In this document: positions 10,975 to 48,483 of the stretch, piece by piece
Numbering within the stretch: the stretch's first letter is position 1
Layout of the letters: the number at the start of each line of letters is the position of its first letter
From: a virus
Virus record (IMG/VR): IMGVR_UViG_3300024261_000006
Span: 62,001-126,000 of that record
Direction: 5' to 3' (one strand)
Length of the DNA stretch: 64,000 nucleotides
The notes under the pieces: model-generated
What the model saw: only the letters and a program-made list of their open reading frames with translations
Told to the model about the DNA's origin: nothing
Database searches by the model: none
Made by a program: the position numbers and the translations under genes

Positions 10975-10976
10975 TA

Positions 10977-11965: not shown

Positions 11966-11966
11966 T

Positions 11967-15940: not shown

Positions 15941-15943
15941 TAT

Positions 15944-17566: not shown

Positions 17567-17567
17567 C

Positions 17568-17942: not shown

Positions 17943-17964
17943 TTGACTTTCCTTTATAATTTAT

Positions 17965-22909: not shown

Positions 22910-25900
22910 TTAAAAATCCATTTTAACTCTAAATAGCACATTATCACTGTTCTTCTTAGGAAATGGCTGAGCTAATTTAGCTTTTGCTACAACATTTAAG
23001 TTTTCATCGTGAATGTCTATATCTGTAATATAAACAAAATCTTCGTCAGAGTTAAATGCAGAGTTATCTATTCTTAAATCTTCAATATATGACTTGTTTT
23101 TAGATAAATTAGTTTCTCCAGCATGAGCAGGCAAGTTTAATTCAAAAACATTTAATGAAGCATGAGACTTTGCTTCAATTTTAAAGTTTGTCAAACCAAA
23201 ATTATAAAGACTAGGATGTAATAATGTACAAATACCTTCGTTATATAGAACATGTCCTGAGGTATTCCATTCAGCGCTCTTTGTTAAACTATCACATCTA
23301 TACATTGTGCCTAAGCTACTATCTTTAAAAAATAAACTTACTCCAGAAGATAGTGGCAGATCAACATCCTTAATAGTAAAAGTCTCTTTTTTAATTTTGT
23401 TATTGAAAATTTGTGTAGAAATACAGAAAATAGTACTAGAGTTTTCATTATAATCTTCCTCAAGTTGCCATAAAGGACTATATGCTTTCCAGTAAATAAT
23501 TGAACTTTCTTGACCAATTAATTTTTGATCATAATTTTCCAATTGTGATATTGTATTGTCATGGCTAGAATAATAACTTCTTTGTGCAGGATTAGAAAAT
23601 GTTTTATAGAAGTCGCCTGATTCATTTAAATCTAATTTGCTAGCAAGAGATAGCTCAGATTTTCTCCATGCGCTAATATTAGACGAAACAACATTATCAA
23701 CAAATGATAGATTAAATTCACTATGATAGTTATTCAAAGATATATTTTTCAGTTTATCTGGGAACTCATTGAATCTCTTTTCATTAATAAAAGAAACATT
23801 GCTATTAGTTATATAAAACTCTCTTCTTTCTTCTAAAGGCGTCAGTTCATCTCTATTGTAATATTCTGGTATTGTTAAAAGCCTAGCACTAATTGAGCTT
23901 TTTAAATTAAAATCTTTTTTTATGTTGTTTAGAGAAACAAAGTCATAATTTATCTCTCCAACATCATTTTTATGTATATCTAGATAATCACTTTCTAAAT
24001 TATACTTAAAAACATCGTTATTATAAAACTGCTCTTGAAGACCATTGTCGCTTGGTAAAATCATATAATTTTTGTAAATAATAGTATCTACTTGATGATC
24101 TATATCAGCATTTGTTTTAAGACTATTTATAGTTATTGTATTATCTATTGAAGCTTCGTTATATATATCGAGCAAAAAAGTATCAGCTGTTTTGCCTTCT
24201 TTTATTTTATTATTAAAATCTGCATTATCTAAAACAAAAGAAGCTTTACTTAAAAAGCAATTTTGATAAGAATCTTCTTTTATATTGCCACCAATAACTA
24301 TATTGGGTTGAGTATTAAAAACAAATTCTCTAGTAAAATGCTCAGCTGATACTTCTGTACCGCCTGTAAATGTAAAAAAGAAAGGATTAGTTGCAGAATT
24401 ATAAGATATATTTTCTGTTTTTATTTTGAAATTATTTTCATCAACGTTTTGATCAACGTTGTTATATATATATTTACCTTCGAGGTATTCATCAACAGGT
24501 ACTGATATATCATTGTCTATTGTTTTTCTATACGGTGCATTTAAGTTAACAAGACCCTGTCTTTTGACATTTTGTGACTTAAAATATACAGGCAAGTAAA
24601 AAATAAGATCGTATTCATCTTTTTCATAATCAATACTATTAATACCTTTTTTTGTAATATTTAAAACTTTTTCAGCGTCCAAAGATTGCTTGTACAATCT
24701 AATATCACAAATTTCTGCATTTAATGCCATACTAGTATTTTCATTAATATAACTAGAATTACTATCGTTTAAATTGTTTTTAAAATCATATGTTTTGCTT
24801 GGATCACTCACTCCGTTTAAAACAGAATCAATCTGATTACCAAAAAGTATATGTTTTTTAACATAAGGACCAAGGTTATCGTCTGCATTAGTCAAGTCTT
24901 TGGAAAATGCATTGAGAACAAAGTCACTAATGTCTGCTTTTTCTACTAGTATCTTATTACCAATTGTTATAAAGCTGTTATTTGATTGCTGCAGAAAAAC
25001 ATTATCTTGCTCACTAAGTGTAGAAATAAGAACACCATCTACAAATATTTCAAAATAACAAGTTGTAGAATTATTTACTGTATTTTTTCTAAAGGCAAGC
25101 GCAACATGATGCCAATTATTATGAGAAAGAATATTATCTTTACTTAAATAGTTTAATCCTGCGCTTTGTTCACTTTCGTCAGTAAAATCAAAACTACTTG
25201 ATTCAACTGTATTAAATAAAGCTTCATAAGTTTTTTCTCCTGTCTGAGTTAAAATTCTAAACTTATCAGTTAGACCTTTTTCATCTACACTTGTACCTTT
25301 AACAATATATACAGAAACTATACCCGGGATATTAATTATACAACCCGGATTATAATGAAAAGCATCTTTATTTTTTCTTTTTGGATTAATATAAAAACTA
25401 ATTGAAAAATCTTTTGCATCTGTAAAGTCGTAAGTTTGTTTTGATTGACTAAGCAGATTAGGATATATTAGACAATTTTTATGCGTTATACTATTAGAAA
25501 ATTTACTATTAATATTTTCATATATATTGAAAAAGTTTAAAGAGTTGTAGTTTTTAAATCCCCAGCTTAGATCATGAAAACTATTATGTTCTATGTTTTC
25601 TCTATAGAATTCATACAGATTAAGCACAGAAAGCTTTTTTCTATAGCTTTGACTATCTATCAAGTATTCTTTTTCAATTCTTTCTACTTCAAACTGGTGT
25701 TTTCCTGCTGTATTAAATTGAACACCCTTGTCAACACAAAAACTAGTAATAAAATTATTATTTCTACTAGTTTCAGGAACTAATTTAGTTTTAAGCTCTG
25801 ATTCTAGCGCTAATATATTACTTTTCAAATTTGTTATTTTTGTTAATAAACTAACTGAAGTATCTCTTACGAAAGCATCACTAACATTATACTGTCTTTG

Positions 25901-26116
25901 TCTAGTGATGTCATGTGCATCACTACCTACAGTATATTCTTTATACTCTTTTATATCTGTATTTGTAGAATTTATAAACCCATACGTTCCAGCTTGAGTT
26001 ATTTCAAGTCTGTCTAAAAAATTGCAATCTGAAGATGCTGAAACGTAGTTTATTGAAGGGTGAAGTTCAATTTTATTTTGAACTATCATTTTTTTATCAA
26101 TAATATTAATTGTCAT
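22910..26116 (-). CDS. Giant structural protein with a LamG-like lectin domain, 1068 aa
   Basis: Asn/Ser/Asp-rich. Residues about 228-385 have a concanavalin/LamG-type jellyroll signature: DFSISFYINPKR, then NNWHHVALAFRK, FEIFVDGVLISTL and SFITIGNKI. This suggests glycan or cell-surface binding. The C-terminus (YITDIDIHDENLNVVAKA...FRVKMDF) matches the C-terminus of the next upstream protein, so both belong to one structural family. It starts 1 bp after that gene and ends 3 bp before the RuvC-like gene. Probably baseplate or tail appendage; no T4 homologue recognised. Confidence 0.85.
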   Translation of the reverse strand: MTINIIDKKMIVQNKIELHPSINYVSASSDCNFLDRLEITQAGTYGFINSTNTDIKEYKEYTVGSDAHDITRQRQYNVSDAFVRDTSVSLLTKITNLKSNILALESELKTKLVPETSRNNNFITSFCVDKGVQFNTAGKHQFEVERIEKEYLIDSQSYRKKLSVLNLYEFYRENIEHNSFHDLSWGFKNYNSLNFFNIYENINSKFSNSITHKNCLIYPNLLSQSKQTYDFTDAKDFSISFYINPKRKNKDAFHYNPGCIINIPGIVSVYIVKGTSVDEKGLTDKFRILTQTGEKTYEALFNTVESSSFDFTDESEQSAGLNYLSKDNILSHNNWHHVALAFRKNTVNNSTTCYFEIFVDGVLISTLSEQDNVFLQQSNNSFITIGNKILVEKADISDFVLNAFSKDLTNADDNLGPYVKKHILFGNQIDSVLNGVSDPSKTYDFKNNLNDSNSSYINENTSMALNAEICDIRLYKQSLDAEKVLNITKKGINSIDYEKDEYDLIFYLPVYFKSQNVKRQGLVNLNAPYRKTIDNDISVPVDEYLEGKYIYNNVDQNVDENNFKIKTENISYNSATNPFFFTFTGGTEVSAEHFTREFVFNTQPNIVIGGNIKEDSYQNCFLSKASFVLDNADFNNKIKEGKTADTFLLDIYNEASIDNTITINSLKTNADIDHQVDTIIYKNYMILPSDNGLQEQFYNNDVFKYNLESDYLDIHKNDVGEINYDFVSLNNIKKDFNLKSSISARLLTIPEYYNRDELTPLEERREFYITNSNVSFINEKRFNEFPDKLKNISLNNYHSEFNLSFVDNVVSSNISAWRKSELSLASKLDLNESGDFYKTFSNPAQRSYYSSHDNTISQLENYDQKLIGQESSIIYWKAYSPLWQLEEDYNENSSTIFCISTQIFNNKIKKETFTIKDVDLPLSSGVSLFFKDSSLGTMYRCDSLTKSAEWNTSGHVLYNEGICTLLHPSLYNFGLTNFKIEAKSHASLNVFELNLPAHAGETNLSKNKSYIEDLRIDNSAFNSDEDFVYITDIDIHDENLNVVAKAKLAQPFPKKNSDNVLFRVKMDF

Positions 26117-26117
26117 G

Positions 26118-27335
26118 TTAGTAGTCTATTCTCACGCTAATCGAAAGGTCAACTTCTGGATTTTTTTCAATAGGCCTTGATGTTTTAGCAACTGCAAGCA
26201 AGTTGTTGCTAGTATCATACAACCCTATCGTAGTAATATAAGAGAAAGGATCAGCACCTCTATTATCTAAACCATCAATAACTCTAATAGTACCGTCAGA
26301 ATTTGTATAAGTTGGATTTCTAGAATAGTTTGCTTGACTCGGAGCAACTCTACAAACGTAAATAGAAGAGTTAATGTTTGTTTGATTTAAAAAACCCATA
26401 GCTGTGCTTGTCGTTCTGCCGAATCTTGTATTACATATATGATCAACAATAGTATCAATAGAACCAGTAGCCCATAAGTTTGGAAAAAGCTTGTCATCAA
26501 AAGCTGTATCATTGCCGCCACTAACTGTTGGTATGTTGCCTTTTACGTTGACAGTTCCGTTAAATACTTTTTTTGCATCTAATACTACAATGCCTTTTTC
26601 ATAAAATATTAATCCTACATTATTTGCACCTTCTACTAATGTCCCAATGCTACCAGCTTGACTTGTTACTCTTAAACTTGTGCTAGCACCTGAGTCTGTT
26701 ATAGTTATTGAGCTTGCTGAATCTGCTGGAGTTCCAATATTTGTACCCGCCCCTGGGTTTTTATATAACTTCATTGTAAATTGCTCTTTTACAATACTGT
26801 CTCTTGCAAAAAGTCGCTTAACGTTTAGAAATATTGCTTCGTCAATTCTTTCTGGAGGATTATCGCCTGAAGAAACTGTTGATTCATATGGTGATGTAAA
26901 GAAACTACTAGAATCTCCAAGTAAAGTCTGTGCATATTGCTTATAAATATTGATTTTCTCTCTCATCATAAGAACAGTGTTAGGAAAAAGCCTTTTACCA
27001 CTACTGTCAGTTCCAGTAGATGCATCAGAAACTAGTTTACTTCCATCATAACATCCTATTGCTATATCAAACAACTCGTTTGACGTTTGTGTCGTATAAT
27101 CTTGATCAAATATTGTTTGAAAAAGAGAGCTAGTTACTGCATTTGCGCCAGTTCCTGATACAAATACTTCATATTTCTTTCTTGTTTTAGTATTATTACT
27201 GCTACTTGGTGCATCATCGTCATCGACACTGGCAACATCTACTTGCAAGATATCTACTAGTTGTTTTACTTGTGATGTTTTTCTAATAATATCTGCATCA
27301 TTAATTTTAAAAAACGTATTAGTCAGTTCTGTCAT
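26118..27335 (-). CDS. Structural protein with shared C-terminal module, 405 aa
   Basis: Ser/Thr/Asp-rich, beta-type protein without enzyme motifs. Its last 45 residues (PFSYITTIGLYDTSNNLLAVAKTSRPIEKNPEVD, ending VRIDY) form a module repeated, with changes, at the end of the 1068-aa protein, and recalled from hypothetical structural proteins of marine T4-like phages. An acidic DDDDAP patch and a Ser/Asn linker lie near residue 40. It sits 14 bp after the 249-aa protein and 1 bp before the 1068-aa protein. Probably tail or baseplate. Confidence 0.82.
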   Translation of the reverse strand: MTELTNTFFKINDADIIRKTSQVKQLVDILQVDVASVDDDDAPSSSNNTKTRKKYEVFVSGTGANAVTSSLFQTIFDQDYTTQTSNELFDIAIGCYDGSKLVSDASTGTDSSGKRLFPNTVLMMREKINIYKQYAQTLLGDSSSFFTSPYESTVSSGDNPPERIDEAIFLNVKRLFARDSIVKEQFTMKLYKNPGAGTNIGTPADSASSITITDSGASTSLRVTSQAGSIGTLVEGANNVGLIFYEKGIVVLDAKKVFNGTVNVKGNIPTVSGGNDTAFDDKLFPNLWATGSIDTIVDHICNTRFGRTTSTAMGFLNQTNINSSIYVCRVAPSQANYSRNPTYTNSDGTIRVIDGLDNRGADPFSYITTIGLYDTSNNLLAVAKTSRPIEKNPEVDLSISVRIDY

Positions 27336-27349
27336 TCTTATCTCTCTTT

Positions 27350-28099
27350 TTAAAGTTGTTGACTAGTTATAGTAATAGGGACTATCAATGAAGAATTAGT
27401 TCTATTTCCTATGATTTGTATTTGTGTTTTAATAGTAGTTCTATCACTTGCCAGAGAATAATATCTATAACTACTGTCATTTGTAATACCAGCAGCAATA
27501 ACTTCAATTTTTGCTACAGATTGACCCCTGAATTCTCTTGTAGACTCTCTAGATTTTGCAAGAACATTGAATGTAGTAATATCACTACTATTAACTATAT
27601 TATCAACAGAATCTGCGTTTGTTACTTTAAGAAGCTTGTTAAAAACTTTAACTTTAAAAAACTCATCTACAAGTCTTGATTTATTAAGATTAAAGTCAAC
27701 ATCTTGATTAATTGATGTTTTAATGTTAACAATAGCAACCTTTTTATTAGGTTGAGATTCTGAATGTGTTGTAATGCTTATTGGCAAAGTTGTACCATCT
27801 AGCACAATCTCAGGATAAGCATAGACAACTTGCGTATTATTGTCTAAAGTAATTAATGGATATTTTAATGCTAAATTCTCAGATGTTAATGCTTCAAATA
27901 TAGGTGTATTTTTTTCAATCTTTTCTTTGCCTAAAGGTATACCATACTGCTCTATTACAGAGTAGTCAACCTCGTCATCTGAAAGTCTAAATCTAGATAT
28001 TTTAAATGAGCCATCATTTCTAGACAACAACTCTCTACCCTTGTCAGTTAAAACAGCATCAATTATAACATTGTTTGTCGCGTGATTTAAAAATCCCAT
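27350..28099 (-). CDS. Structural protein with LTxxGRxxLS N-terminal module, 249 aa
   Basis: The N-terminus (MGFLNHATNNVIIDAVLTDKGRELLSRNDGSFKI, then RFRLSDDEVDYS) belongs to a family I recall from hypothetical proteins of marine T4-like phages, and a degenerate version opens the 344-aa protein at 38615-39649. The rest is beta-rich (TTLPISITTHSESQPNKK; KVAIVNIKTS). Its own leader carries a perfect TATAAATA and an AGGAG ribosome-binding site, so it may start a late transcript. Likely a tail/baseplate or appendage component. Confidence 0.82.
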   Translation of the reverse strand: MGFLNHATNNVIIDAVLTDKGRELLSRNDGSFKISRFRLSDDEVDYSVIEQYGIPLGKEKIEKNTPIFEALTSENLALKYPLITLDNNTQVVYAYPEIVLDGTTLPISITTHSESQPNKKVAIVNIKTSINQDVDFNLNKSRLVDEFFKVKVFNKLLKVTNADSVDNIVNSSDITTFNVLAKSRESTREFRGQSVAKIEVIAAGITNDSSYRYYSLASDRTTIKTQIQIIGNRTNSSLIVPITITSQQL

Positions 28100-28117
28100 A
28101 TGTCAATCTCCTTCTTT

Positions 28118-28125
28118 TATTTATA
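28118..28125 (-). promoter_or_regulatory. Candidate T4-type late promoter (TATAAATA)
   Basis: A perfect T4 late -10 box on the minus strand, inside the palindrome TATTTATAAATA, upstream of the ATG at 28099 with AAGGAG between. The short intergenic region after the 541-aa gene is one of few gaps in the structural block. A gp55-type late sigma factor is encoded in this window. The resulting leader would be very short, about 12 nt. Confidence 0.45.
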
Positions 28126-28143
28126 AATATATATTAAATAATA

Positions 28144-29769
28144 TTAACCAAAATTGTTTATTGTAAATTTATCACTTCTATAAATGTTGTCATTTAAGTT
28201 CATAAAAGTAAATTGATACTCATCACCATCATTTATAATTTTTTCTTCTTCATTTTTCGTAGTGATACATGAGAAATCAGGAGTAACATAAAGCGTTATT
28301 TTTTTAGGCTGTTCAGCTAAAGGTAAATTATCAACAATATCTATTAGATTTTCAAAAAATAAAGATTTATTTAGTACTGTGCTATTAGGATATAGTACAT
28401 CAGCACCTGATCTTCCAACTAAACTAGTTATAAGTTTATCTCTTAGCATGTCATAATATACACCTATTTGTTCTCCATAGCTAGATATCATACCATGTGC
28501 ATCTATTGATCTTATAGCATATATTGACATCTTATTAACATCAAAAGTTTCTTCATGATAAGAAGTAACAACTTTTCCAGGAGTTTTTATCTTGTCAGAA
28601 TTTCTAACGCTTTCTACGAAATCATATAAATCTGTAGGTAAATGACCTTCTAGTTGCTTAACTAACTTGAATGGCTCGTCTAAACTAGACCTTTTAAGTA
28701 TCTGATATCCTTTAACATCTCCTTCGTAATTAGTAGGAGATTGCCATCTTAACATCATTTTTTTACTATTTTTATTATAAGAAGCTTTAAGTGCTACAGG
28801 CGCAGGTGGAATATTAAATTCCTTACATATGATATCGTTGCTTAAATAGGGATAGTCACATAGCAAATAATGGTTTAATACAAATCTATCACTAGGATCA
28901 ACTGCTGTATATAGATAAACATTGTAATGAACATATCTGTATGTTTTTCCATATTTTATTGCTTCATCTTCAATTGAGTTGTCAATATTATGTGGAGGTG
29001 CATTTATAAAAAACCTAGAACATAAAAATTTATATTTTCCATTTTCTTCTAAAGCAAATTTTTCCAAATATCTTCCACAATATACAGCATTCAATCTAGC
29101 ATATAAATTTGGATCACCTGTATTAATACTTGTAGATAAAGGAATTAAACCAGGAAAAATGCTTCCTGATTCGAACTTTGATATAAAGTTATCTTTACTG
29201 TTTCTAGCTTCTATTATTTTTTCACTAGTAACAATATCTTCATAAGCAGTGATATTATTGTAGTTGAAATTTTCAACAAGTTCTTTTCTTTCAAATTTTT
29301 CAATATATTGATTAACAGGTAGAATAGATAAGTTGTTCGATCTATTAATCCTTGAAATTGTATCTTTTTCAATATCAGCATCAGATTTTTTGTTAATTTT
29401 AAAATAATTTTTTATTTCATTAAACTTATAGTCTACTACTAGACTCCTTCTTGTAGGTATTAAATTATCAATTTTATTAAAAAGTTCACGCTCTGATTCA
29501 TATAAATCACGATCTGTCAACTCGTCTATAAATCTTAATTGTTCAACTTCAGAAAAATCTTCACTATCTAAAACCTCTACAGTATTTTCAAGCTCTATTC
29601 TAATAAATTTATTTTTAGATACGTTATTGGTATTCATTATAAACTCATCAGGAATTTGAGTTTCATTTTCATTATATAGATTATATATAAATGAAAAATT
29701 TGCTTCTTGATTTCTTTTTTTGCCGTAAGACAATGAAAAAACTAAATCTTTTATAGTATCAATATTCAA
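28144..29769 (-). CDS. Structural protein with FN3-like domain, 541 aa
   Basis: Residues about 323-375 (PPAPVALKASYNKNSKKMMLRW, then GYQILKRSS) have the Pro-rich entry, Trp and Tyr of a fibronectin type III repeat, common in phage tail and baseplate proteins. Upstream are charged helical regions and a conserved-looking stretch (FLCSRFFINAPPHN, YVHYNVYLYTAV). No enzyme motif. It begins directly where the 1814-aa gene ends, with no gap, and is followed by a 44-bp gap holding a TATAAATA box. Probably baseplate or tail fibre adaptor. Confidence 0.83.
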   Translation of the reverse strand: MNIDTIKDLVFSLSYGKKRNQEANFSFIYNLYNENETQIPDEFIMNTNNVSKNKFIRIELENTVEVLDSEDFSEVEQLRFIDELTDRDLYESERELFNKIDNLIPTRRSLVVDYKFNEIKNYFKINKKSDADIEKDTISRINRSNNLSILPVNQYIEKFERKELVENFNYNNITAYEDIVTSEKIIEARNSKDNFISKFESGSIFPGLIPLSTSINTGDPNLYARLNAVYCGRYLEKFALEENGKYKFLCSRFFINAPPHNIDNSIEDEAIKYGKTYRYVHYNVYLYTAVDPSDRFVLNHYLLCDYPYLSNDIICKEFNIPPAPVALKASYNKNSKKMMLRWQSPTNYEGDVKGYQILKRSSLDEPFKLVKQLEGHLPTDLYDFVESVRNSDKIKTPGKVVTSYHEETFDVNKMSIYAIRSIDAHGMISSYGEQIGVYYDMLRDKLITSLVGRSGADVLYPNSTVLNKSLFFENLIDIVDNLPLAEQPKKITLYVTPDFSCITTKNEEEKIINDGDEYQFTFMNLNDNIYRSDKFTINNFG

Positions 29770-32700
29770 TTATAAAATCCTTACACCTACATAATACGTA
29801 AAGCATTTGTCAACATTTTCATCTTCTAAAACGTTACTTCCATATCTATATTCAATTACTTCTTCACTGTCATTTATTTTAAAGTCATCTCTATTTATCT
29901 TGATATTGTGAATATCGTAAAATACACTAGGCAACAAGCACTTAATCATCTCAGTACTCGCAATATCTTTATCTACTTCAATTAAAAATTTCTTGTAAAA
30001 ATCATTGTTTTCTAATATATTTTTATTACTATCTAAATTGAAATAATTTCTATCGTCACTTATAAATTCAAATTCATTGATACTGTACGTATCAAAAATC
30101 TTTACTAAGTCGTCTTCTGTAAGAGAAGATGTCATACTTATAGTCTGTCCTGATATTAAATTTTCTGTATCTTCACTTGATAGTTTTACATTTTCATCTA
30201 AATGTTTTTGGCTTACATAGTTAATAGATTTAATAGCACTTGACATAATTGAATCATCAACTAGCTTTCTTGCCACTTTTTCAACTTTTTCTGCTCTAAG
30301 TGAACCAGAAATTTCAGCACTTCGACTTAAAGAATCATTAAGCACATTTTTAACTTCATTTAAAGCTGTTCTTTTATCAACTACGCTATAACGATTAGAT
30401 ATTTTTTGTGCATCATTGTAAAATCCTAAATAGTTCCCAGTAGATATTCCTGAATCAGAAAAGAAATTACTAGTAACATCTGTTAAAAAGGGAGTGTAAT
30501 AATACTTTAACTCATCATACTCAATTTCAGGATACTTTACGTTAATAGGCAAAATTGAAATTTCCAGTATTCCTCTTTCTCCTATTTTACTTAAAAGTTC
30601 GTAATCAATAGGCAACCTTATTATATCTATTTTTTTGTTTGATTCAATTTCCCTGCGTAAAGCGATCCCGCTAGTGCTAACACCAAATGTATCGTAACTA
30701 CTAATATCTCGAGAAATAACTCCACAACCGTCAGATGCTTTTTTAAACATGTTACTAGCTAATAACTTTCTATGATTAAAAACGTTACCCTCATCATACT
30801 TTTCTGCTATTGTGTTAAAAGTATTGTTTCTTATAAATGTTTCGTTATAAATGTTTTTATAGTAGATTATTTCTTGTAAATCTTTTGAAATTTTATTCTG
30901 GTAAAACTCGTTGCCAATCAGATTGTTAAAATTATCAAATATATCTAGACTAATGTTGTCTAATTCATTGCTTATAAAGTCCATAGACTGATCTAATTCT
31001 AAAGTGTTTTCTCCGGCATTGATTAAGTTATTTTCGAAATTTAAAAAATATCCGTGTATCAAATCATGACAAATACTTTCAGAAATATCACTATTGCTTA
31101 ATACTCTCATGACTTCTTTTAATTTTACATATCTTCCAGTATATACTTTTAAATTGCTATCATCTAAATCTGTTATTAAGCTGGTTTCTAATTCTTTATC
31201 TTGATATTTAAAATTTCCTTGACTTGCTATATTGTCATTGTATATTTTTTTAAGATCGTCAACTATCTTATTTCTAATCGAAGTATTATCGAAGCTGTAA
31301 AAGTTTTCTATGTTATTGAAAAAAGCTTTACTTTTTTCTTCGTCTTTGTCTTCAAGATTAATTTTAATTTCATCAACAAGCAAGTTATTAAAAATATTAT
31401 ATGACTCAACAAACATACTGGAAAATGCTTCTAAAGAATCTTGTAATAGTCTTACGTAAAAGCTGTTATTGTCTACAAAGCTATCTATATCACCTATGTT
31501 ATTCATTTTGCTAAAATCAACTTTGAAAACTTTCAACACATCTTCAGCAAACGAAGTTATCTTGTTTGAAAAAGTACCCGGTGTACTAGCTAAATAAAAA
31601 TAGCTATAAGGTATTTTAAAATTATTACTTGTATAAGCTGAAAGGATTTTTTCATTATTTTCTAGTACTAAATTATCCCAAGATCCTGTATTTAGATCGA
31701 TCTTAAAACCTAGCTCCTCTAGAGTCGACTCACCGATGTTTGGCAGGTATCTAAATAATGTAGACTCACCGGTGTCTGGCACGAATCTCAATAATGTAGA
31801 CTTAAAAAATTCAGCTAATTCTATAAAACTGCCAGAATTTTCTGTAAAATCAAAATCAAAATAGCTCAAATTTGCAATTATTCCTTTTTGAATTAAGTCA
31901 TCATTAAAACTATAGCCGCCAATTATCTTTTCATCACCTTCAGATTTGTAAAAAACAATACCGGTATTATTTTCGTCAAAAAATATATCATGATTATAAG
32001 CCGACTTTGTCAATATTTTCAAATATTCTCTGTAAAATGAAGTATATGAGTTATCGTCATCACCAAAAAGAATATCACTCATGTACATAGCTGACTTTAT
32101 TTTTCCTAAAACATTATCTTTAAAAAAATCATGTTTTTTAACTATGAACGGGAATTTTAGTGTACATAAATACCCGGGGATGTTTTTGAATTCACCAGCA
32201 CTGTCAGAATTCTCAGAATTTTTTATGTTTATACTCTGTTTTGTCATACTGAAATCTTCTACTGTTAAATCTTTCTTAGCAGTTGTTCTTATTATAAAAT
32301 TTTCTTGATTTTTTATTGTATCTTTATTGAAAATACTAGATATTACTTTATCAATACTCTCTTTTTTAAATTCTTTCTTTAAGAACTTACTTAATTCATA
32401 TTCTTTGCTATTACTAGCAAGATTATTTTTAATATTTTTATTAAAAAATGAAATATTGTCTACCGGTTGACTTTTCAAAAATGAAACTTGTTGATCAACT
32501 CCTGACATGTTCATTATTGCATTTTTCAATATTAATTTTACATTTTCAATATTGGAATTTTTATCTAAATTTGATTCATTAGAAAGAGAAGTTGCCAATA
32601 AAATATCAAAAGCAAAATACTCTTTATTAGTATAAAAACTGTTGTTTGTAGAAAAAATATCGATATTGTCTCTTATCATTCTTAACAATAAGCTTTTTTT

Positions 32701-38615: not shown

Positions 38616-39649
38616 TATTCAATCACCAACGTAAATAAATTAACAAAATAGTAATCATTAGATAAATCAACTATAGTTGTATTGTTTTCTAAGTTAAAAG
38701 ATTCTTTAACAACTTCTTTTTTAATAAACTTTCCAATCAAGAAAACTTTTACAAATTTTTGATTGAATTTATCAAATATTCTACCTAGATTTATAAAAGG
38801 TAGTTTACTTAAATTATTATCTTTTATTTTGTGCATTTCAAACACATAATTGTCATTTGCTCTAGAGAAAGAATTATCAAGATTATAATCTAAATAGAAT
38901 AACTTGTCTCTATTTTTTGAAAGTAAGTTAACTACCTTAGCTATGGCATCTTCTCTTTCATCACCTATAAATATTTCATTTTTAAAATCTAGTGTTTTGT
39001 AGATGAAATGTATAGGATTTCTAGGTGAGCTGTCTGTAACAAATCCATCCTCGCTTTGTGATCCTAAAATATTTCCTTGTGAATCTATAGGGTCTAACCT
39101 CTTGAACTTTAAATAATTAGAAAATCTATAGTCTTTTTTTACTTCTGGTAAATTTTCTACGTTTTCTTTTAGATAATGCACAGTTGGATATTTCCTAGAA
39201 TAAGTTTCGTCTATAAAATCAAACGAATCAGGTAAATCAGAGCTTTCTAGTGTTAAACTGTTATTATCTAAGTTTTTGTTTGCAAGAACCCTGTCAGAAA
39301 TATATTCGCTAGATGAAAAATTTTCTGCAAATGTTTTTTGTGTCCTTGTAAAGTTGAAAATTGAATCATTTTCATAATTGTCGTATATAGCTTCGTTACT
39401 CAAGTAAAATTCTGGATTGTAGTACATCCCGGGATCTGTAGAAACCTCAGTAGGTAAATAAAAAAATTCTGACTCTGGAATGTTAGGTATTAATGAATCT
39501 AAAACAGATAGCTCTTTGTTATAGACTATTGAACTATCTGTAAATGCATAATACTTAAATCTAATATCACCTGTAGATAATTGACTTCTACCATGTTCAG
39601 TTAATTTGTAGTCTATTAACCTTTTTTTCTTATCTAAAAATCCTGCCAT
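38615..39649 (-). CDS. Structural protein with degenerate LTxxGRxxLS module, 344 aa
   Basis: The N-terminus (MAGFLDKKKRLIDYKLTEHGRSQLSTGDIRFKYYAF) matches the pattern opening the 249-aa protein at 27350-28099, so the two are paralogous at least there. The remainder is Asp/Asn/Ser/Phe-rich and unrecognised; near residues 215-265 are SPRNPIHFIYKTLDFKNE and a charged stretch. It has its own 68-bp AT-rich leader with an AGGACT site. It shares one base with the 1134-aa gene downstream. Probable tail/baseplate component. Confidence 0.82.
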   Translation of the reverse strand: MAGFLDKKKRLIDYKLTEHGRSQLSTGDIRFKYYAFTDSSIVYNKELSVLDSLIPNIPESEFFYLPTEVSTDPGMYYNPEFYLSNEAIYDNYENDSIFNFTRTQKTFAENFSSSEYISDRVLANKNLDNNSLTLESSDLPDSFDFIDETYSRKYPTVHYLKENVENLPEVKKDYRFSNYLKFKRLDPIDSQGNILGSQSEDGFVTDSSPRNPIHFIYKTLDFKNEIFIGDEREDAIAKVVNLLSKNRDKLFYLDYNLDNSFSRANDNYVFEMHKIKDNNLSKLPFINLGRIFDKFNQKFVKVFLIGKFIKKEVVKESFNLENNTTIVDLSNDYYFVNLFTLVIE

Positions 39650-39717
39650 TTAAAAGTCCTAGTTTTATCTTAGTATATCTAAATATTAAATCTAATTAAA
39701 TTCTTTGAACTAATTTA

Positions 39718-41988
39718 CTATTCTTTAAATGTAACATCTAATATAGAATACTTGTTGCTATTATAAGACTTTGTTGATGTTATTTCATTAAAAGAACTAT
39801 CTCTAAACTTTTTAATAACAGTATAATATAATTTGTTTAAAGCCAAATCTTTGAATGGTGAAAATCTATTATAATTTAGTCTATTACTAGGGTTTCCAGA
39901 CTTAAAATAACTCAAATATTGATTAGTATAGTCTTTACTACCTTCCGGAAGTGTGTCTAAGTTTTCTTCGTTTTCATCACTTGCTTTTTTAAAATTTGTA
40001 AAAGTTTTTGCTGCAATTGTTGCAAGTGTAGTACCACTAATATTTTGTTTTTCAAAAACTGCTCCTGAGTTAACATTATCGAGGGTAAACGTATACTCTG
40101 TAGGACCTCCCGGGAAGAGTGGAGCAATCAAATTGATTGTGCGGGTAATTTTTTTATCATAATAAGCACCTTTGTTCAGGTAAATATTGTTCATTCCAAC
40201 TTCATCTGTGTTACTTACGCTGTCAAAATAATTTATTTTTTTATAAGAATTATTTTTGAAAGTAACTCTGTTTGTTTTTGTTTTCTTTTCTTTTTGATAA
40301 TAATTCCCTATCAGAGAAACTTCGACTATATCGTTTAATAAATAAACATCTCTACCTACTTTATTGTTACTTAAAAGCTTCATAGAGGGATTAAAACTAA
40401 ACCCTAAAATAAGTTCATCTGATGGTAAAAGAACGTAATGATTAGTCTTACTAGAATTTTTGCTAATGCTAAGTTCTTTACTCGCATCATCAGTTGATGT
40501 TGTTATATCATGAGAAATTGTATAGTCTGATTTTTCTGATCTTTCTGTATTATACTCTGTTCCAGTTCTATTAACATACTTTGAAAATGGATAGATGTTA
40601 AAACTGCTAAAACTCTCAATTTTTTCATTATATGAAGGAGTTTTTATGTCACCTATAACTTCTATAGTTTTGTCGTAGTTGCACTTTGCAAAAAAAGCTG
40701 CATCTGAAGGTTTTGATGAATCTTCATGGATATAGTCCGAATTATTTCTTATGCTTTCTATGTCTATATTCATTGCAGATTCATCAGTACCGCCAGAAGC
40801 AAAATTTACTATACTTAAATAAGATATTAATTCTCTTTGTGAAGAAGAAAGTTCGCTATAAGTGTTATTTGAATCATGTGTATCTTTTAGACTTATACTT
40901 TCGCTAGAATTGCCAGTATTTTGTATGCTAGAAAAAGCTGGAAATTCATCTACACTGTAAGTGATTGATTCTGTATTATGATTATAAACACCACTTCCAG
41001 AAACTTGTGTAACTGTAAAATAGTCAAAGCTCCCAGAGTCTAAACTAAGATTAGTAAAAGAATTCTTATTTAAATTCTTTCTTTGATTGATTATGAAAAA
41101 ATTCAATGAGTTAAGAATAGAAAGACTGAGATTTGAATCAGTTTCAGCTCTACTAGAACCTTTAAACTTTATTTTTATTTTTTCCAACAAAAAAGGTTTA
41201 GTTATATACTTGCTTGCTTTTAGTAAATGTCTATCTAGACCTTGATATCTATCATCAAAAGGAAAGCCGAAAGTATTAATAGGATAGCCTAAAGATTGAT
41301 TGCTTATTTTGTTTGTTTTCGATGTATTGATTGAATTAAATGCTATAGGAGATTCTTTAAAATCTGTTATTGAATTATAATAGTTCTTTTCTATGTCACC
41401 TAAATAGTCCCATTTTTTGTCTGCAAAATTATAATATACAGTTGGAGCATTAATACAGTTATAATTTGTATTGTCAAGGTTTACAGCTTGATTACTATTA
41501 CTGTCTTTATTAAAAGAAAGTCTACAAGGCTCAGAAAAACTTAGATTTATTCTTATTTCTTTTTCGTTATTACTTAACTCATCTCTACTTAGTATTGTAG
41601 AATCATTAAACAAGCTTTCATTGTCATCTATGTAATTTTCTTTTAAAAACATATTATAGTGTGTTGAAGTAACTATTTTATTAATCTTATTAGAAGTATC
41701 AAACTCATTAGGTGAATGCAATATCTTGTTATTTAATTTATATACTTCTTCAACAGGAAATGTATTGTTTACTGTTTTTTCTATAAAGTCAACAGTATTA
41801 TTGTCATTATATGGCAAAGAGTTTATATGTTTGCCTAGGTTATTATGATAAAAGCTGTCTTTGAAAAAAGACTTATATTCATTTTCTTTTTTAATTGCAC
41901 TTTTTAAAGATCTAGTTAATATACCTGACTTTTTAATAAAGCTACCATCACTTGACTTGTAAATTTGTTTCGTTCTTATTTTCGGCAT
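39718..41988 (-). CDS. Structural protein, 756 aa
   Basis: Asn/Ser/Thr-rich. A central region (NTFGFPFDDRYQGLDRHLLKASKYITKPFLLEKIKIKFKG, about 240-280) looks like a structured core, and the C-terminal part is beta-rich (TRTINLIAPLFPGGPTEYTFTLDNV). No family or enzyme motif recognised. It begins with a 1-bp overlap with the 345-aa gene, and a 68-bp gap follows it, one of the few breaks in the block. Assigned as structural from composition, coupling and position only. Confidence 0.82.
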   Translation of the reverse strand: MPKIRTKQIYKSSDGSFIKKSGILTRSLKSAIKKENEYKSFFKDSFYHNNLGKHINSLPYNDNNTVDFIEKTVNNTFPVEEVYKLNNKILHSPNEFDTSNKINKIVTSTHYNMFLKENYIDDNESLFNDSTILSRDELSNNEKEIRINLSFSEPCRLSFNKDSNSNQAVNLDNTNYNCINAPTVYYNFADKKWDYLGDIEKNYYNSITDFKESPIAFNSINTSKTNKISNQSLGYPINTFGFPFDDRYQGLDRHLLKASKYITKPFLLEKIKIKFKGSSRAETDSNLSLSILNSLNFFIINQRKNLNKNSFTNLSLDSGSFDYFTVTQVSGSGVYNHNTESITYSVDEFPAFSSIQNTGNSSESISLKDTHDSNNTYSELSSSQRELISYLSIVNFASGGTDESAMNIDIESIRNNSDYIHEDSSKPSDAAFFAKCNYDKTIEVIGDIKTPSYNEKIESFSSFNIYPFSKYVNRTGTEYNTERSEKSDYTISHDITTSTDDASKELSISKNSSKTNHYVLLPSDELILGFSFNPSMKLLSNNKVGRDVYLLNDIVEVSLIGNYYQKEKKTKTNRVTFKNNSYKKINYFDSVSNTDEVGMNNIYLNKGAYYDKKITRTINLIAPLFPGGPTEYTFTLDNVNSGAVFEKQNISGTTLATIAAKTFTNFKKASDENEENLDTLPEGSKDYTNQYLSYFKSGNPSNRLNYNRFSPFKDLALNKLYYTVIKKFRDSSFNEITSTKSYNSNKYSILDVTFKE

Positions 41989-43025
41989 TAGTCTATACTT
42001 TCATGATAAAAAAAGGACTCTTCACCAGTGTTTTTTGAATAGTCTATAGCTTTTCCTAGTTTAGAATATATCTTTTCTTCTTCAAGATCATAAATATTAT
42101 TATTATTTCTGTTTAATATTAATATATCATTTAAAGATTCATCTCTTAATTTATTATAGAAGAAATTTGAATCATTATTTACAAGAATATCTCTTTTATT
42201 AGAAGCTACATCTTTAAAAGGTTCTGTTTTCTGAGAATTAAAGGTTACAAATCTAGGTTCATTAGAATGTCTATTTGTTTTTACTTCTACTAACACAGGA
42301 GGAATATGATCGTTATATTCAACTTTGTACTTATCATTACTGTTATAAAGTATTCCTTCTAATATGCCATCTTCAAAAAAACTGTTTGGCATTTGATCTT
42401 TTATAGTATAATTTTTAATATGAACGTTTTCTTTTATTCCATTAACGCCATTACTAAAAGAGCTCCCTTTAATACCTTTTAAGCTGTCTACACCAAAACT
42501 ATACTGTTGTATTCTCTTAACACTATCAAAAACTTCTATTCTTGCTCCCCTTCTATAAAAGTCTGAATCGTTAAATCTGATTGGGTGCGGATATTCTCCC
42601 ATTTCAGACTCACTTATACCTATGTAGTCTATTGTTTCAAACTTATGTCTATCTTTAAAGTAATCAAAGTCAATATTTAATTGTGATTCATTGTTGTCAT
42701 AATGACCAATATTTTTTCTATAAAAAGAAGTATTCAAAGGTAAGTCGATATATTCGTTACTTGTATCATTATAAGGTTTTATATATATTTCTTTGTCTTC
42801 TTTGAAAAAATTTGAATATTTTTGACTATTAATATTTCTTTTTACAAAATCAAGTGCATTGAAACTCATTCTAACTGTATAACTATTTGATTCTTTTTTT
42901 ATATAGTTATTTGATTTTCTATTTAAAGTATTAGAATTTCTTCTTTTGTATTCTACGAAATAACCTGAGCCTTCTTTGAATAAATGTGACGGATAGCCTT
43001 CGATATTAACGATAATCATGTCCAA
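41988..43025 (-). CDS. Structural protein, 345 aa
   Basis: Rich in Asn, Ser, Asp and Tyr. YIGISESEMGEYPHPIRFNDSDFYRRGARIEVFDSVKR is the most ordered-looking stretch (about 135-170). It overlaps the upstream 1184-aa gene by 10 bp and the next gene by one base. Its size and place after gp25, gp6 and a gp7-sized protein recall T4 gp8 (334 aa), but I see no sequence similarity to gp8, so the name is not used. Probable baseplate wedge component. Confidence 0.8.
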   Translation of the reverse strand: MDMIIVNIEGYPSHLFKEGSGYFVEYKRRNSNTLNRKSNNYIKKESNSYTVRMSFNALDFVKRNINSQKYSNFFKEDKEIYIKPYNDTSNEYIDLPLNTSFYRKNIGHYDNNESQLNIDFDYFKDRHKFETIDYIGISESEMGEYPHPIRFNDSDFYRRGARIEVFDSVKRIQQYSFGVDSLKGIKGSSFSNGVNGIKENVHIKNYTIKDQMPNSFFEDGILEGILYNSNDKYKVEYNDHIPPVLVEVKTNRHSNEPRFVTFNSQKTEPFKDVASNKRDILVNNDSNFFYNKLRDESLNDILILNRNNNNIYDLEEEKIYSKLGKAIDYSKNTGEESFFYHESID

Positions 43026-46000
43026 CTCTTTCTTATAATGCTATTGTCTGGATTCAAATCTGATATTGTGTTTCTTCTTGAAAAACCGTTGATATTAAAT
43101 TCTGCAGAATATCTTTTGTTATAAGTATCAAAACTTACATAGCTTTCCAAGTCAACATATCCAATTCTACTATCAGACATTCTATATTGATACTTATTTC
43201 TTTCAGCAATCGAAGATTCATAAACAAAATTAAAGCCATGGTAGTGAACCTTGCTAGGTACTGCCTGATAGAGAATGTCTTCAAGAATATTATCATAATA
43301 TTTGTAAATTTGGTATAGTATTTTTATATTTAGCTCTTTTTCAAGTTTTTCATAAAATACATTTCTTAGCTCATGTAAACTTTGGTAACTATCTTCAAAC
43401 AAAGATGAAGCATTACTAAGGTTTTGAGTAAAATAATCGTTTACAAGTATTATTTTTGATATTTCTTTGTCAATAAAATTGGAAACAGAAAAGTCTATAG
43501 ATAATCTTATATCTTCAAAGTTTGCAAATTTAGACTCTGTAGAGAAGTTAGGATTAACGTTAAAATTTTCATAATCTTCCATTAACTTTGTGTTGCTTAA
43601 AGAGTTTATGTTTACTCTACTAAAATTTTCTGGATAATCAATTTTACTTGTTTGTTCTAGAACTATATAGTCAATTAACTTAAATATGTTTTTTGTCAAC
43701 GTCAAGTAATTATTATCTATATATATTTTAGATTTTATATCATTTGCAGTATTGTTTATTCTTGTTACTTCATTAAATAGCTCAAAATAATTATTATCAA
43801 TTCCTACTAATCCATTTGAGTTAGTTTCTAATTTCTCTCTTAGATTTGTATGCAATATCAGCGTATCGTGAACATCTTTTATGTTTGATGAATCTACGCC
43901 TGAATTGGAAATATCAGTTTTATGTACTAATATTTCTTTTTTTGTCAACTCTTTTTGCCAAAGCCTAATTGTGCCAATTAATCCCTCAAACCTAGTATAA
44001 TTTATATTTTCGCTTGTAACTACATTATCATAAAAACCTGATTTGACAATGCCTGTTCTAACAAAAGGTTTATTTATAGAAAAGTCTTTATCTTTTATGT
44101 TAACTACAGACTCAACTTGATTAATTGCTTTGTTTTTAGATCCAAAATCTGAATTGCACTCAAACAAATTGTAACGAGAATAGCTATCAGTTAAATGTTT
44201 TCTGTTTATGCATATATAATGTAACTTACCGTCAAACAAGTTAACGTCGTTCAAGCTAGATGCTACGATTTGACTATTATTATTTGTTTCCCTAACATAC
44301 AATGTAAAAGTGCCTGAAATGTCTGTAGATTTATCTCTAGAAAATACTAAGTTTATATAGGGAACTTTGCTATTAACATTGTCCTCTTTGTCTATTCTAA
44401 ATATTGATTGTTTATTGTTGTAAGATTCTAGCTTAAGCTGATCAAATTTGACATACGCTTCTAACGACCAATTAGATGTAAAATCTAAAAATATATTATT
44501 GTTTGAGTCATACATTTGTGTCTCTAATAACAATCTATTAGCGGGATAACCGCTTACATTGTCAAAAGTTTCAGAAGTATTAATTATACCATTATCAAAA
44601 AAGTCTACAAGTTTCAGTGCTTTATTTTTTTCTATAAATGAAGTAGACATATTAAGCTTGTTTTGAGAGTTAAACTCTCTTATACTAACAAATGTATCAG
44701 GTTCTAATCCAAAGCTATTGAAAACAGATTTTATAGAGTTTATTGTTCCTTTGCTTCTTATGAAATCTTGTGAATTAATTAAAAATCTTTTCCATAATAC
44801 GTTTTGAATCTGTCTAATTGATTTTTGACTAAATACTTCTTCATGAGTTAAATTTTTACCTTCCAGTTTGTCTAGAATAATATCTGGAAATATTTCTTTA
44901 AATTCAAATCCCATTTGTGACAAAGCAGTTGGCAATATTATGCTAGATTGTTTATTATTGTTTAAGTCGTCATAGTTTAAGTCAATAATCTTAGATATGT
45001 TATCTATATAGCATTTTAATTGATCAAAAAACCTTGACCATATAGTAATTAGATTTATCAACGTAGAGTTTCCAGGTTCAGTAACTCCAAATAACACTTT
45101 AGTGTTTGTTTGATCTATAGCAACTTCTTCTTTTGTTACAAATATATTGTCAACACCGTCATTATCAGATGATTCTACAAATAAATACTTGGGAAAAAGT
45201 TTCCAGAATACGTTAGGATTTTGTTTATCATAAATTTCTGCATTTTCTAATAAAGATTTTTGGCTTAGCAAAGTATTGGAAAAATTAGGAAATATAACAG
45301 GTGATTTATTTAATACTTCATACTTTATTGGTGTATCAATATTTATGTCTTTTGTTCTATATTCACTTATTTCTGATTCTTGCCAAGCGCTACCACCAGA
45401 ATTTTTCCTTATTAGCCCGTGAACTTTTTTGCCAGAAGAATCTAAACATATATTGTTATTAGTATATACTCCGGAAGGCTCATTGAACTTATAATATATA
45501 TTTAGTGCTGGAACTGAATGTATGTTTTTATTTTTTTCTACTACAATGTCTTTTCTTTTTCTAGAATTTACAAAGAATCTAAATTCATCTATATAACCTA
45601 TTAGACCCGAAGTCCTTGTCACATTTAAAGTGTTATTTGCTAATATTGCGTGATTAGATCCATTTCCAATAAAAGCATTAGATTTAATAAAGTCATTTTG
45701 TAGCTTTTCGCTTACGTTTAAAGATCCATCTTGAGTTACACTTTTCTGTTTGCCGTTATAATAAAAATTTGTAAATCTTTTTCCTTGAACAATAATTGTT
45801 GTAAAGTTAACATGATTGAATTTTCCTAGCTCTACTTGCGAAACAGACTTATGGAAATTATTATTGTTTGATATTACTAGATTTAAATCGCAGTAATTAA
45901 TGTTATCTAAAGTAGTAAAGTTATCTGCATATATTGTTATTCCATTATCTGAATCATCTTTTTTCTGGAATATTATTTGTGTTCCAAAAGCTGTACTATT

Positions 46001-46570
46001 TGCTTGAGAGTCAATATATAACCAAAAGTCAAAGCTAAACTTGTTTCTATTTATATCAAAAAGACCTGATTTTACTTCGCCTTTGTAATCATTAAACAAG
46101 TTTCCATTTTTATCTTTTATGAAAACTTCATTGTTTCCATCAAATCTTAAATATCCTAAGTTTTTAGGTATGTGATTGTCATAAATATGTTTTGTAAATC
46201 CATCTAAGTTTAGAAAATACTGATTAACATCGTATTCTGTTTTGTCATATGGAAATTCATTGAGTATTTTTCTGTATGCATAATGAACTTTACTTACTGC
46301 AGAATCAAAAAATACGTGATTTTCAAATTTAGAAAAATCAACGTTTACAAGCTGTTGAGTTGTAAAAAGCCCTTCGTAATCGTCTATTCTACCAAAGTAC
46401 TCAGATTTATCCTCGTTAAATAGAGTTTCACTATCCTTAGTAATATGTTTGTTTTTCGCTGTTCTTTCAACAGAAGTTAATTTCGTGTTGCTATTATACC
46501 CTTTTTTTTTAAAAATAGAATTATTAACATGTAATCTTCTTAAAGAAGCTGATCCTGCTTGTCTAGACAT
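43016..46570 (-). CDS. Giant baseplate protein with two LamG-like domains, 1184 aa
   Basis: The first jellyroll lies at about 173-303 (KFSFDFWLYIDSQA; GKFNHVNFTTIIVQGKRFTNFYYNGK). The second lies at about 697-865 (NWSLEAYVKFDQL; DGKLHYICINRKHLTDSYSR; GTIRLWQKELTKKEI). Between them, near 590-620, is LWKRFLINSQDFIRSKGTINSIKSVFNSFGL, the SKGT..SI...F..FG pattern found in many baseplate and tail proteins. Size and order (after gp25, gp6 and a 637-aa protein) resemble T4 gp7 (1032 aa), though homology is not shown. The lectin domains suggest surface-glycan contact. It overlaps both neighbours by 1 and 10 bp. Confidence 0.85.
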   Translation of the reverse strand: MSRQAGSASLRRLHVNNSIFKKKGYNSNTKLTSVERTAKNKHITKDSETLFNEDKSEYFGRIDDYEGLFTTQQLVNVDFSKFENHVFFDSAVSKVHYAYRKILNEFPYDKTEYDVNQYFLNLDGFTKHIYDNHIPKNLGYLRFDGNNEVFIKDKNGNLFNDYKGEVKSGLFDINRNKFSFDFWLYIDSQANSTAFGTQIIFQKKDDSDNGITIYADNFTTLDNINYCDLNLVISNNNNFHKSVSQVELGKFNHVNFTTIIVQGKRFTNFYYNGKQKSVTQDGSLNVSEKLQNDFIKSNAFIGNGSNHAILANNTLNVTRTSGLIGYIDEFRFFVNSRKRKDIVVEKNKNIHSVPALNIYYKFNEPSGVYTNNNICLDSSGKKVHGLIRKNSGGSAWQESEISEYRTKDINIDTPIKYEVLNKSPVIFPNFSNTLLSQKSLLENAEIYDKQNPNVFWKLFPKYLFVESSDNDGVDNIFVTKEEVAIDQTNTKVLFGVTEPGNSTLINLITIWSRFFDQLKCYIDNISKIIDLNYDDLNNNKQSSIILPTALSQMGFEFKEIFPDIILDKLEGKNLTHEEVFSQKSIRQIQNVLWKRFLINSQDFIRSKGTINSIKSVFNSFGLEPDTFVSIREFNSQNKLNMSTSFIEKNKALKLVDFFDNGIINTSETFDNVSGYPANRLLLETQMYDSNNNIFLDFTSNWSLEAYVKFDQLKLESYNNKQSIFRIDKEDNVNSKVPYINLVFSRDKSTDISGTFTLYVRETNNNSQIVASSLNDVNLFDGKLHYICINRKHLTDSYSRYNLFECNSDFGSKNKAINQVESVVNIKDKDFSINKPFVRTGIVKSGFYDNVVTSENINYTRFEGLIGTIRLWQKELTKKEILVHKTDISNSGVDSSNIKDVHDTLILHTNLREKLETNSNGLVGIDNNYFELFNEVTRINNTANDIKSKIYIDNNYLTLTKNIFKLIDYIVLEQTSKIDYPENFSRVNINSLSNTKLMEDYENFNVNPNFSTESKFANFEDIRLSIDFSVSNFIDKEISKIILVNDYFTQNLSNASSLFEDSYQSLHELRNVFYEKLEKELNIKILYQIYKYYDNILEDILYQAVPSKVHYHGFNFVYESSIAERNKYQYRMSDSRIGYVDLESYVSFDTYNKRYSAEFNINGFSRRNTISDLNPDNSIIRKSWT

Positions 46571-48483
46571 TATTCAAACCTTATAATTAAACTTTTGTCA
46601 AATATTTGTTTTTCAAGACCAGAAAAATAGTCTGTATAATAGAAAACAAAGCTTGCTCTTTTATTCTTGTAATTTTTAGATGCATATAGATTCAAATGAT
46701 AATATTCTCCATTGTAAATAAGCTTTGTGTAATAACCATCTTTTGAAATTATCTCTTCACCTGTGTCAACATCAAACATTGAGTAATTAACATTCCCAAT
46801 ATTTTCTGATATTAAGTCTACAGGAACCTTAACAGCATCATATTGTTTCTTCGTATCAATAAAACTTAACTTAAGCTGCTTGAAGTCATTGTTAACTTTC
46901 ATAGACTTGTGATCTGAGTCAACAACAACTCTTACATTTCTAAATACCTCAAGATTACTATCAGGCAAGTAAAACTTAACTGTTTCTGTTTTCAGTATTA
47001 TTTCGTCACTATCAACGTCACCATCTGTGTTGCTGTCATAAAAATATTTTAAAGTTATATCTACATAACCATTTTTAATCAGCTCAGCTTTAAATTTTGA
47101 ATTTGATTCTGTGCTTTGAATAACATTATTTGTCAAAGCAAACTTTTTAATTCCCGGGATGTCTGAACCTTTGTAATTTTTAACTGCAGTGGCATCTATT
47201 ACATTATTACTCAGTATATTTGTTGAACCATCTGTATCTAAATATGAAAACTCTAACTTTAAGTTTGCACTAAAAGCTGTTGGAGACTTATCGATTATAT
47301 TTGTTAAATAAAAATTTTCTGTATTATCTAGATATCTTTTTTTATCTTTATATGTGATAATGTCAAAGACTGTGTCTTTTATTTTCATTTCAATTTTTGG
47401 ATGGTAGTTTTTATTAAAGTTATTTCTACTAGCAAACCTTTTTAAAAAATAAGTATTTGCATCAAACATGTTTTCATGATCAAAATCAATTACAAAACAC
47501 TGACTTAAACTACTACCTGTATTAAGATAATGTTGAATATATGAAGTTATATCAAAAACTATGTCTTCGCTCCCATCTTCTATGTCTAATGTTGAAAAGA
47601 CAGCTTGTGCTAGTAATGATGTATCTGTCGAAGTAACAATACCTTCTTTTGTCCAGACTTTGCTTGTTTTAGTGTTAATTGTTTTAAAGTTAGCATCACC
47701 TAAATCTGAAAAGTGGACTGTGTCCCTGCCTAAACCTTCATTAAAATCTTCATTTAAAACTCTTAGTCTTAACTTAAAGTCTTTTGGTCTTACAGATGAA
47801 CTCCCAACATCTTTTAGCTTTAACTGTGCTTTAAAATTACTATTAAATGCAGAGCTTCCATAAGTAGTAACATTGTTTGTTTTAAAAGAGGCAAGATCAA
47901 ATTTAAGTAATATTGACGAGTGCTCAAATCTTCTAAAAGGTGTAATGCTAAAATTGCCAGATGCATCATGTGTAACTACTCCATCACCTGATTTTCCTGC
48001 TATATTCTGTTCTAGCAGAATTTTTGAATCCTCTAATTTTGTTGCAGTAATATTAAGCTTTAAGTTTTGTTGACCATCTGGAGCAGGAGCGCCTTGATCA
48101 GATTGATTAAAGCTAGAAACACTATTTATAGCATTTATTACTTTCTGAAGTTGATTAACACCAGCAGAAACGTTGTTAATTCCTATGATAACTCTTCCAC
48201 TAGCATCAACTCTACCGTCTTCATGCGTTGAGCCACTATCTATAATAAAAACTACACTATTGTCACTACTATCTTTTAAAGTAAACGTTTTACTAGCTAC
48301 AAGATCACTAGTGACATCTAATATTGTAAAAAGTGACCTAGGCTTAACGTTTTTATTTTCACCTACGATTTTAAATAAGTCAAGTGTTGATGCTTGACCA
48401 AAGTTAGCATCTACTCCTTTATTATATTGCGTTGAAAGATCTGTAACGTATGTGTCTTTTACAGCATTTTCTGTTATTATCAT
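46570..48483 (-). CDS. Structural protein with DNRLRE-like domain, 637 aa
   Basis: The N-terminus KDTYVTDLSTQYNKGVDANFG and the following SILLKFDLASF (about 188), FKLRLRVLNEDFNEG and DIVFDITSYIQHYLNTG (about 310-330), with a late YFLKRFASRNN, fit the DNRLRE/CBM-type beta-sandwich found in secreted adhesins and some tail proteins. The C-terminal half is beta-rich (DVDTGEEIISKDGYYTKLIYNGEYYHLNLYASKNYKNK), possibly another Ig-like domain. It starts 3 bp after gp6 and shares a base with the 1184-aa gene. Likely a baseplate-associated binding protein. Confidence 0.82.
   Translation of the reverse strand: MIITENAVKDTYVTDLSTQYNKGVDANFGQASTLDLFKIVGENKNVKPRSLFTILDVTSDLVASKTFTLKDSSDNSVVFIIDSGSTHEDGRVDASGRVIIGINNVSAGVNQLQKVINAINSVSSFNQSDQGAPAPDGQQNLKLNITATKLEDSKILLEQNIAGKSGDGVVTHDASGNFSITPFRRFEHSSILLKFDLASFKTNNVTTYGSSAFNSNFKAQLKLKDVGSSSVRPKDFKLRLRVLNEDFNEGLGRDTVHFSDLGDANFKTINTKTSKVWTKEGIVTSTDTSLLAQAVFSTLDIEDGSEDIVFDITSYIQHYLNTGSSLSQCFVIDFDHENMFDANTYFLKRFASRNNFNKNYHPKIEMKIKDTVFDIITYKDKKRYLDNTENFYLTNIIDKSPTAFSANLKLEFSYLDTDGSTNILSNNVIDATAVKNYKGSDIPGIKKFALTNNVIQSTESNSKFKAELIKNGYVDITLKYFYDSNTDGDVDSDEIILKTETVKFYLPDSNLEVFRNVRVVVDSDHKSMKVNNDFKQLKLSFIDTKKQYDAVKVPVDLISENIGNVNYSMFDVDTGEEIISKDGYYTKLIYNGEYYHLNLYASKNYKNKRASFVFYYTDYFSGLEKQIFDKSLIIRFE

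Follow-up and report, generated by a model that had tools for sequence, protein, structure and literature searches.

Baseplate-type genes and a six-gene, lineage-specific insert in a T4-related marine phage: a probable second host-contact layer

What is encoded by the run of large open reading frames that follows gp25 and gp6 in an uncultured marine phage, and how much of it belongs to an ordinary baseplate? The window analyzed here is the whole 64-kb stretch that corresponds to bases 62001-126000 of the 153,118-base virus record IMGVR_UViG_3300024261_000006, and at positions 22910-48483 it carries eleven open reading frames of 249-1814 aa, all on the minus strand, which we name A (adjoining gp6) through K. 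In the reading that we consider probable, A-K form the baseplate-periphery and host-contact operon of a T4-related contractile-tailed phage, in which an ordinary core is joined by a lineage-specific second host-contact layer. What the sequences themselves supply toward this reading is the identity of gp6, the conservation of the operon, the presence of lectin and FN3 domains, the homology of E with I and of J with K, and the distribution of the insert, while the presence of A-K in the virion, their arrangement and order of docking, and their roles in glycan binding and triggering are what we infer from the T4/P2 paradigm. From gp25 toward K the genes are:

gp25 (wedge, sheath initiator; context), 50349..50858, minus strand: PF04965 at E 3.6e-4, below cut-off; adjoins gp6 in relatives too
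gp6 (wedge; context), 48487..50349, minus strand: phrog_6 at E 1.6e-14; hhalign to T4 gp6 at 62%, E 7.5e-5; hhalign to P2 J
A, 637 aa, core, 46570..48483, minus strand: family in 37 ORFs, including immuto, Mel-JY01 and LR756508
B, 1184 aa, core, 43016..46570, minus strand: probable gp7/gpI-type wedge protein with lectin domains (profiles, model)
C, 345 aa, start of insert, 41988..43025, minus strand: 12 orthologues, plus positional ones by hhalign at 96%
D, 756 aa, insert, 39718..41988, minus strand: size-variable, probable glycan-binding protein; 31 orthologues of 707-2416 aa
E, 344 aa, insert, 38615..39649, minus strand: I-type N-terminal module (hhalign E-I)
F, 1134 aa, insert, 35211..38615, minus strand: positional orthologues in distant contigs by hhalign at 96.6%
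G, 1814 aa, insert, 29770..35214, minus strand: fast-evolving; 13 orthologues
H, 541 aa, end of insert, 28144..29769, minus strand: FN3 domain (fn3 in orthologues, profile)
I, 249 aa, core, 27350..28099, minus strand: attachment-type protein, also in immuto, Mel-JY01 and LR756508; gpH alignment
J, 405 aa, core, 26118..27335, minus strand: attachment-type protein; gpH collar alignment
K, 1068 aa, 22910..26116, minus strand: J-type C-terminus and lectin domain (Laminin_G_3, J-K hhalign), probable receptor-binding protein

The eleven frames cover 25,464 of the 25,574 bases of the block, or 40% of the window, and sum to 8,477 aa; the largest gap between neighbors is 68 bp, and several adjacent genes overlap by 1-10 bp. 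This matches what an earlier sequence-only reading had described as frames packed with overlaps or short gaps after gp25-gp6, and its statement that their total lies far above that of T4 gp7-gp12 also stands when gene lengths are added up (3,002 aa for T4). In a codon-position comparison with relatives, differences are in excess at the third position in all eleven genes, and this excess, together with the same family order in other contigs, establishes A-K as genuine genes, far beyond chance. The Asn richness that the same reading had stressed is a real excess (about 7-12% in A-K versus 7.6-8.5% in terL, primase, and sbcCD), but a modest one that is due in part to the GC content of about 27%.

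Upstream of A-K lie gp25, gp6 and what is probably a hub gene; downstream lie genes resembling ruvC, primase and a fused sbcCD (gp46/47), as well as that for the large terminase. The hub and the downstream genes were named by eye and from the order in relatives. The genome encodes a T4-type portal and capsid protein (Portal_T4 E 3.6e-76, Gp23 E 1.6e-78) and a contractile sheath with a match above cut-off, and a gp19-type tube match is sub-threshold at E 1.4e-4. Apart from lectins, the window proteins themselves matched almost nothing in Pfam or PHROGs when scanned directly. The T4 late-promoter core TATAAATA occurs in the window at chance level and is therefore left out of the argument.

Relatives were found by searching IMG/VR with gp6 and J, and their block regions were labeled by profile HMMs. 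Some 30 diverged contigs in IMG/VR keep the order gp25-gp6-A-B-C-D-E-F-G-H-I-J-K-(ruvC)-primase-sbcCD, with gp6 identity falling to about 30%. A second sample of loci was retrieved by H and E instead of gp6: among H loci with both flanks, I and then J come next in 71/72 and an ORF of at least 850 aa lies upstream in 68/72, and D lies no more than three genes upstream of E in 59/75 E loci, though these counts are not fully independent since the samples include near-duplicate contigs. The block in Flavobacterium phage immuto, Microcystis phage Mel-JY01 and phage LR756508 is shorter and reads gp25-gp6-A-B-I-J, with an occasional one other gene. When the proteins of these short-form blocks are compared by hhalign, A, B, I and J are found at E <1e-19, C, D, F, G and H have no counterpart, and E is matched through its I module only. 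On these comparisons A, B, I and J are a core common to cultured phages, and C-H are a six-gene insert of about 15 kb between B and I. In the gp6 tree a branch with 100/100 support splits 28 rows labeled as carrying the insert, a few of which are contigs that end within it, from four short forms; the tree has no outgroup and so does not tell gain from loss of C-H, and we infer that the genes were gained by the lineage rather than lost by the short forms.

Two contigs from metagenome-assembled genomes hint at hosts at the level of binning, with binning errors possible: PBIO01000013.1 (Halobacteriovorax) has the long form and JABDKL010000076.1 (Winogradskyella) has the short form (L155 and L156 in our set, respectively). 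Another contig (L023, record G014), which falls near the short-form group in the gp6 tree, carries a 2797-aa B orthologue at 10829-19216 and ends before the insert position. In the window itself, the T4-type portal gene (12794-15940) is split at residue 75 by an intein of 377 aa that contains an HNH endonuclease (14588-15718; Intein_splicing E 1.6e-14, HNH_3 E 3e-4) that is absent from the portals of all relatives examined, and a 460-aa protein near the capsid gene (3534-4916), with a NUMOD3 motif at E 4e-4, is a possible homing-endonuclease-like element. A 253-aa protein at 53192-53953, with no Pfam match, resembles by eye a T4 gp55-type late sigma factor, and its gene is kept upstream of gp5 in relatives, short-form phages included. 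Two neighboring glycosyltransferase-like genes at 54277-56699 (PF00534 E 1.7e-7 for 55452-56699) lie between the baseplate operon and a fiber-like gene at 57607-62706, whose 1699-aa product has fiber-like repetitive sequence, a GC content of about 41% compared with 27-30% in its surroundings, and no Pfam match, and is probably a separate long tail fiber.

The core begins with A, which matched nothing in the libraries and for which a PDB profile search gave nothing convincing. Protein B corresponds with high probability to the gp7/gpI wedge protein, judging from its profiles and those of its orthologues. Laminin_G_3 is found in 25/32 B orthologues, and signals below the curated cut-offs appear in the middle of the protein, with Gp7_helical in 3 orthologues in the Pfam-wide scan (4, at the equivalent place, in the per-genome scan) and Tail_P2_I in 4; the window copy shows neither of these middle signals, B does not align by hhalign with T4 gp7 or P2 I taken singly, and tblastn of phage records gave no match. 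In the AlphaFold model of B (pLDDT 65.5), two lectin-like sandwiches flank a poorly modeled helical core, with the gpI region of low confidence, and the PDB folds matched by Foldseek are lectin-type domains. The botulinum and spike-protein entries in that list are generic lectin/jelly-roll matches and functionally meaningless.

The gp7-like look of B, and the position of the block directly after gp6 as in T4, raise the question of whether A-K could be the T4 gp7-gp12 set, enlarged and diverged past recognition, with C-H standing for gp8, gp9, gp10, gp11, and gp12 and nothing new in the block; gp6 itself is only weakly recognized, so other T4 homologues could escape detection. We regard this as improbable, since no family aligns by hhalign with the single T4 proteins gp8, gp9, gp10, gp11, or gp12, though the same method recovers gp6 (moderately), and since C, D, F, G, and H are wholly absent from relatives that share the core.

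The other two core proteins, I and J, resemble attachment-type proteins with tail-collar-type signatures. The N-terminus of I aligns at the expected position with residues 7-41 of P2 gpH, the first part of the collar (score 28 versus at most 20 in 100 shuffles), and the C-terminus of J aligns farther along the gpH collar domain, toward its end (E 2e-6; a score of 50, compared with no more than 21 across 100 column shuffles). The I match taken alone is weak, and the two matches are to opposite ends of one gpH domain, on consecutive genes. No match to PF12571, the P2-type tail-collar fiber domain, was found in the genome, and no single protein has a complete collar domain. The J model (pLDDT 75.8) has no fold match in the PDB and matches uncharacterized proteins of uncultured phages, some of which are called lectins. 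Protein K aligns with J by hhalign (98.8%, E 1e-16) and has a Laminin_G_3 domain at E 6.7e-9, and so is a J-type protein that has gained a lectin domain, with a probable role in receptor binding. The J family in Mel-JY01 has apparently been expanded via tandem duplication, with five J-domain proteins in a row (24490-33433 of L025), three of which have long N-terminal additions of 954, 718, and 591 aa. Within the insert, the N-terminus of E matches that of I (hhalign 96.6%, E 6e-10, score 50 versus at most 17 in 100 shuffles). As a candidate relative of the gpH collar, E was rejected, its alignment score being no higher than those of shuffles. PDB profile searches of E, I, and J gave nothing convincing.

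Among the other insert proteins, D is a probable modular glycan-binding protein, a prediction that draws on LamG (E 2.9e-22), pentraxin and F5/F8-type modules in some of its orthologues; the window copy has none of these modules, and a PDB profile search of D gave nothing convincing. An enlarged D orthologue of 1854 aa (L097, 9663-15224) also reaches 410 bits against the profile of the B family, which suggests that lectin domains have been exchanged between B and D. The fn3 domain is found in 6/29 H orthologues (best 7.5e-5), and the H profile matches titin FN3 chains. The two giants, F and G, gave no reliable match of any kind in PDB profile searches or in tblastn of phage records; the one weak match, between F and a protein from a phage tail region (E 0.05), vanished when a profile was used and was rejected. 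Orthologues of G are established in nearer contigs, and the distant ones are mainly positional, some with weak C-terminal similarity only, and a scan of viral contigs with the single G sequence gave no match, probably because of its fast evolution.

As F and G show no identifiable domain, and as whisker and neck genes follow gp12 in the T4 operon, C-H, in part or as a whole, could be head, neck or whisker proteins, or non-virion proteins, that merely share a late operon. This we consider most unlikely, given the lectin (D) and FN3 (H) modules in orthologues, the I module in E, and the position of the insert between baseplate-type genes in all complete loci of both samples. A further reading takes C-H as a branched tail-fiber network of the phiKp24 kind (PMC9700779), in which F or G would be the primary docking fiber and D and K the terminal binders; such networks exist in phiKp24, and the block has numerous large host-contact-like proteins, including the modular, size-variable D. 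It is nevertheless unlikely in our judgment, as hhalign gave no sign of docking like that of T4 gp10, scans of the families turned up no depolymerase domain, and a separate fiber-like protein is encoded at 57607-62706.

Under the preferred reading of an ordinary core with a second host-contact layer, the wedge would consist of gp25, gp6 and the lectin-bearing, gp7/gpI-type B, and A would be a further core part. Proteins I and J would attach the host-contact proteins, with K as a J-type protein whose lectin arm would bind the cell. The lineage-specific second layer would be made up of C-H, in which D would bind surface glycans and F and G would be long structural or arm proteins; that E docks by its copy of the I N-terminal module and that H is an FN3 spacer are guesses. 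Upon contact, the binding signal would be relayed via B and gp6 to gp25 and so to sheath contraction. Going further, it is a tentative possibility, to which we give somewhat less than even weight, that C-H are a new second adhesion layer, with the giants F and G of new fold and a duplicated I-type docking module, acquired once by the ancestor of widespread uncultured marine myoviruses.

The lineage is common, with H relatives encoded on 271 IMG/VR stretches, yet tblastn of D, E, F, G, H, and K gave 0 matches among 50,697 phage records, and a literature search found no work on this lineage and no proteomics of it or of immuto. The insert could serve as a marker for this large uncultured phage group, and a constant 15-kb extension of the most thoroughly studied injection machine would reveal how ocean phages expand host contact. 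The collar signatures on separate I and J proteins hint at a kinship of P2-type and T4-type attachment. Returning to the sequence-only reading, its lectin-like pieces have Pfam support in B and K and its FN3-like piece is borne out for H through orthologues, and a DNRLRE-like piece in A, seen by eye only, found no support in the libraries. The synteny check that it proposed found the A-K order kept across the contigs and the second sample, and the comparison with gp7-gp12 gave gp7-type sub-threshold signals in B and negative hhalign of the families to the T4 proteins. The phrase "mostly unknown" suits F and G, but not A, B, I, and J, which are common to cultured phages, with B a probable wedge protein and I and J collar-like. 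An elaborate baseplate or host-contact device fits the evidence; "undescribed system" was too strong a term for A-K, as no virion proteomics or structure was found and what the block elaborates is a known machine.

The T4 wedge operon (6-7-8-9-10-11-12) is similar in placing gp6, a gp7-type protein and host-contact genes in sequence on one strand, but it is far smaller (3,002 aa versus 8,477 aa in A-K) and lacks gene A and the C-H insert. In the case of the P2 W-J-I-H genes, gp6 corresponds to J and B to I, and our I and J show a likeness to the gpH collar domain at their ends, though here the collar signatures are on two proteins and the gene set is far larger. The immuto and Mel-JY01 blocks share the gp25-gp6-A-B-I-J order, but they are without C, D, E, F, G, and H, with at most one gene, an unrelated one, separating B from I, and they carry other spike or J-domain proteins. 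The best published analogy is phiKp24, a large contractile-tailed phage with hyperbranched tail fibers, gp10-like docking domains and fourteen putative depolymerase fibers (PMC9700779), which is similar in its unusually high number of host-contact proteins but differs in that gp10-like docking and depolymerase domains were not found among the families scanned here. Set beside these systems, A-K is an elaboration of the known contractile-tail machine, and what sets the block apart is C-H, with F and G most of all.
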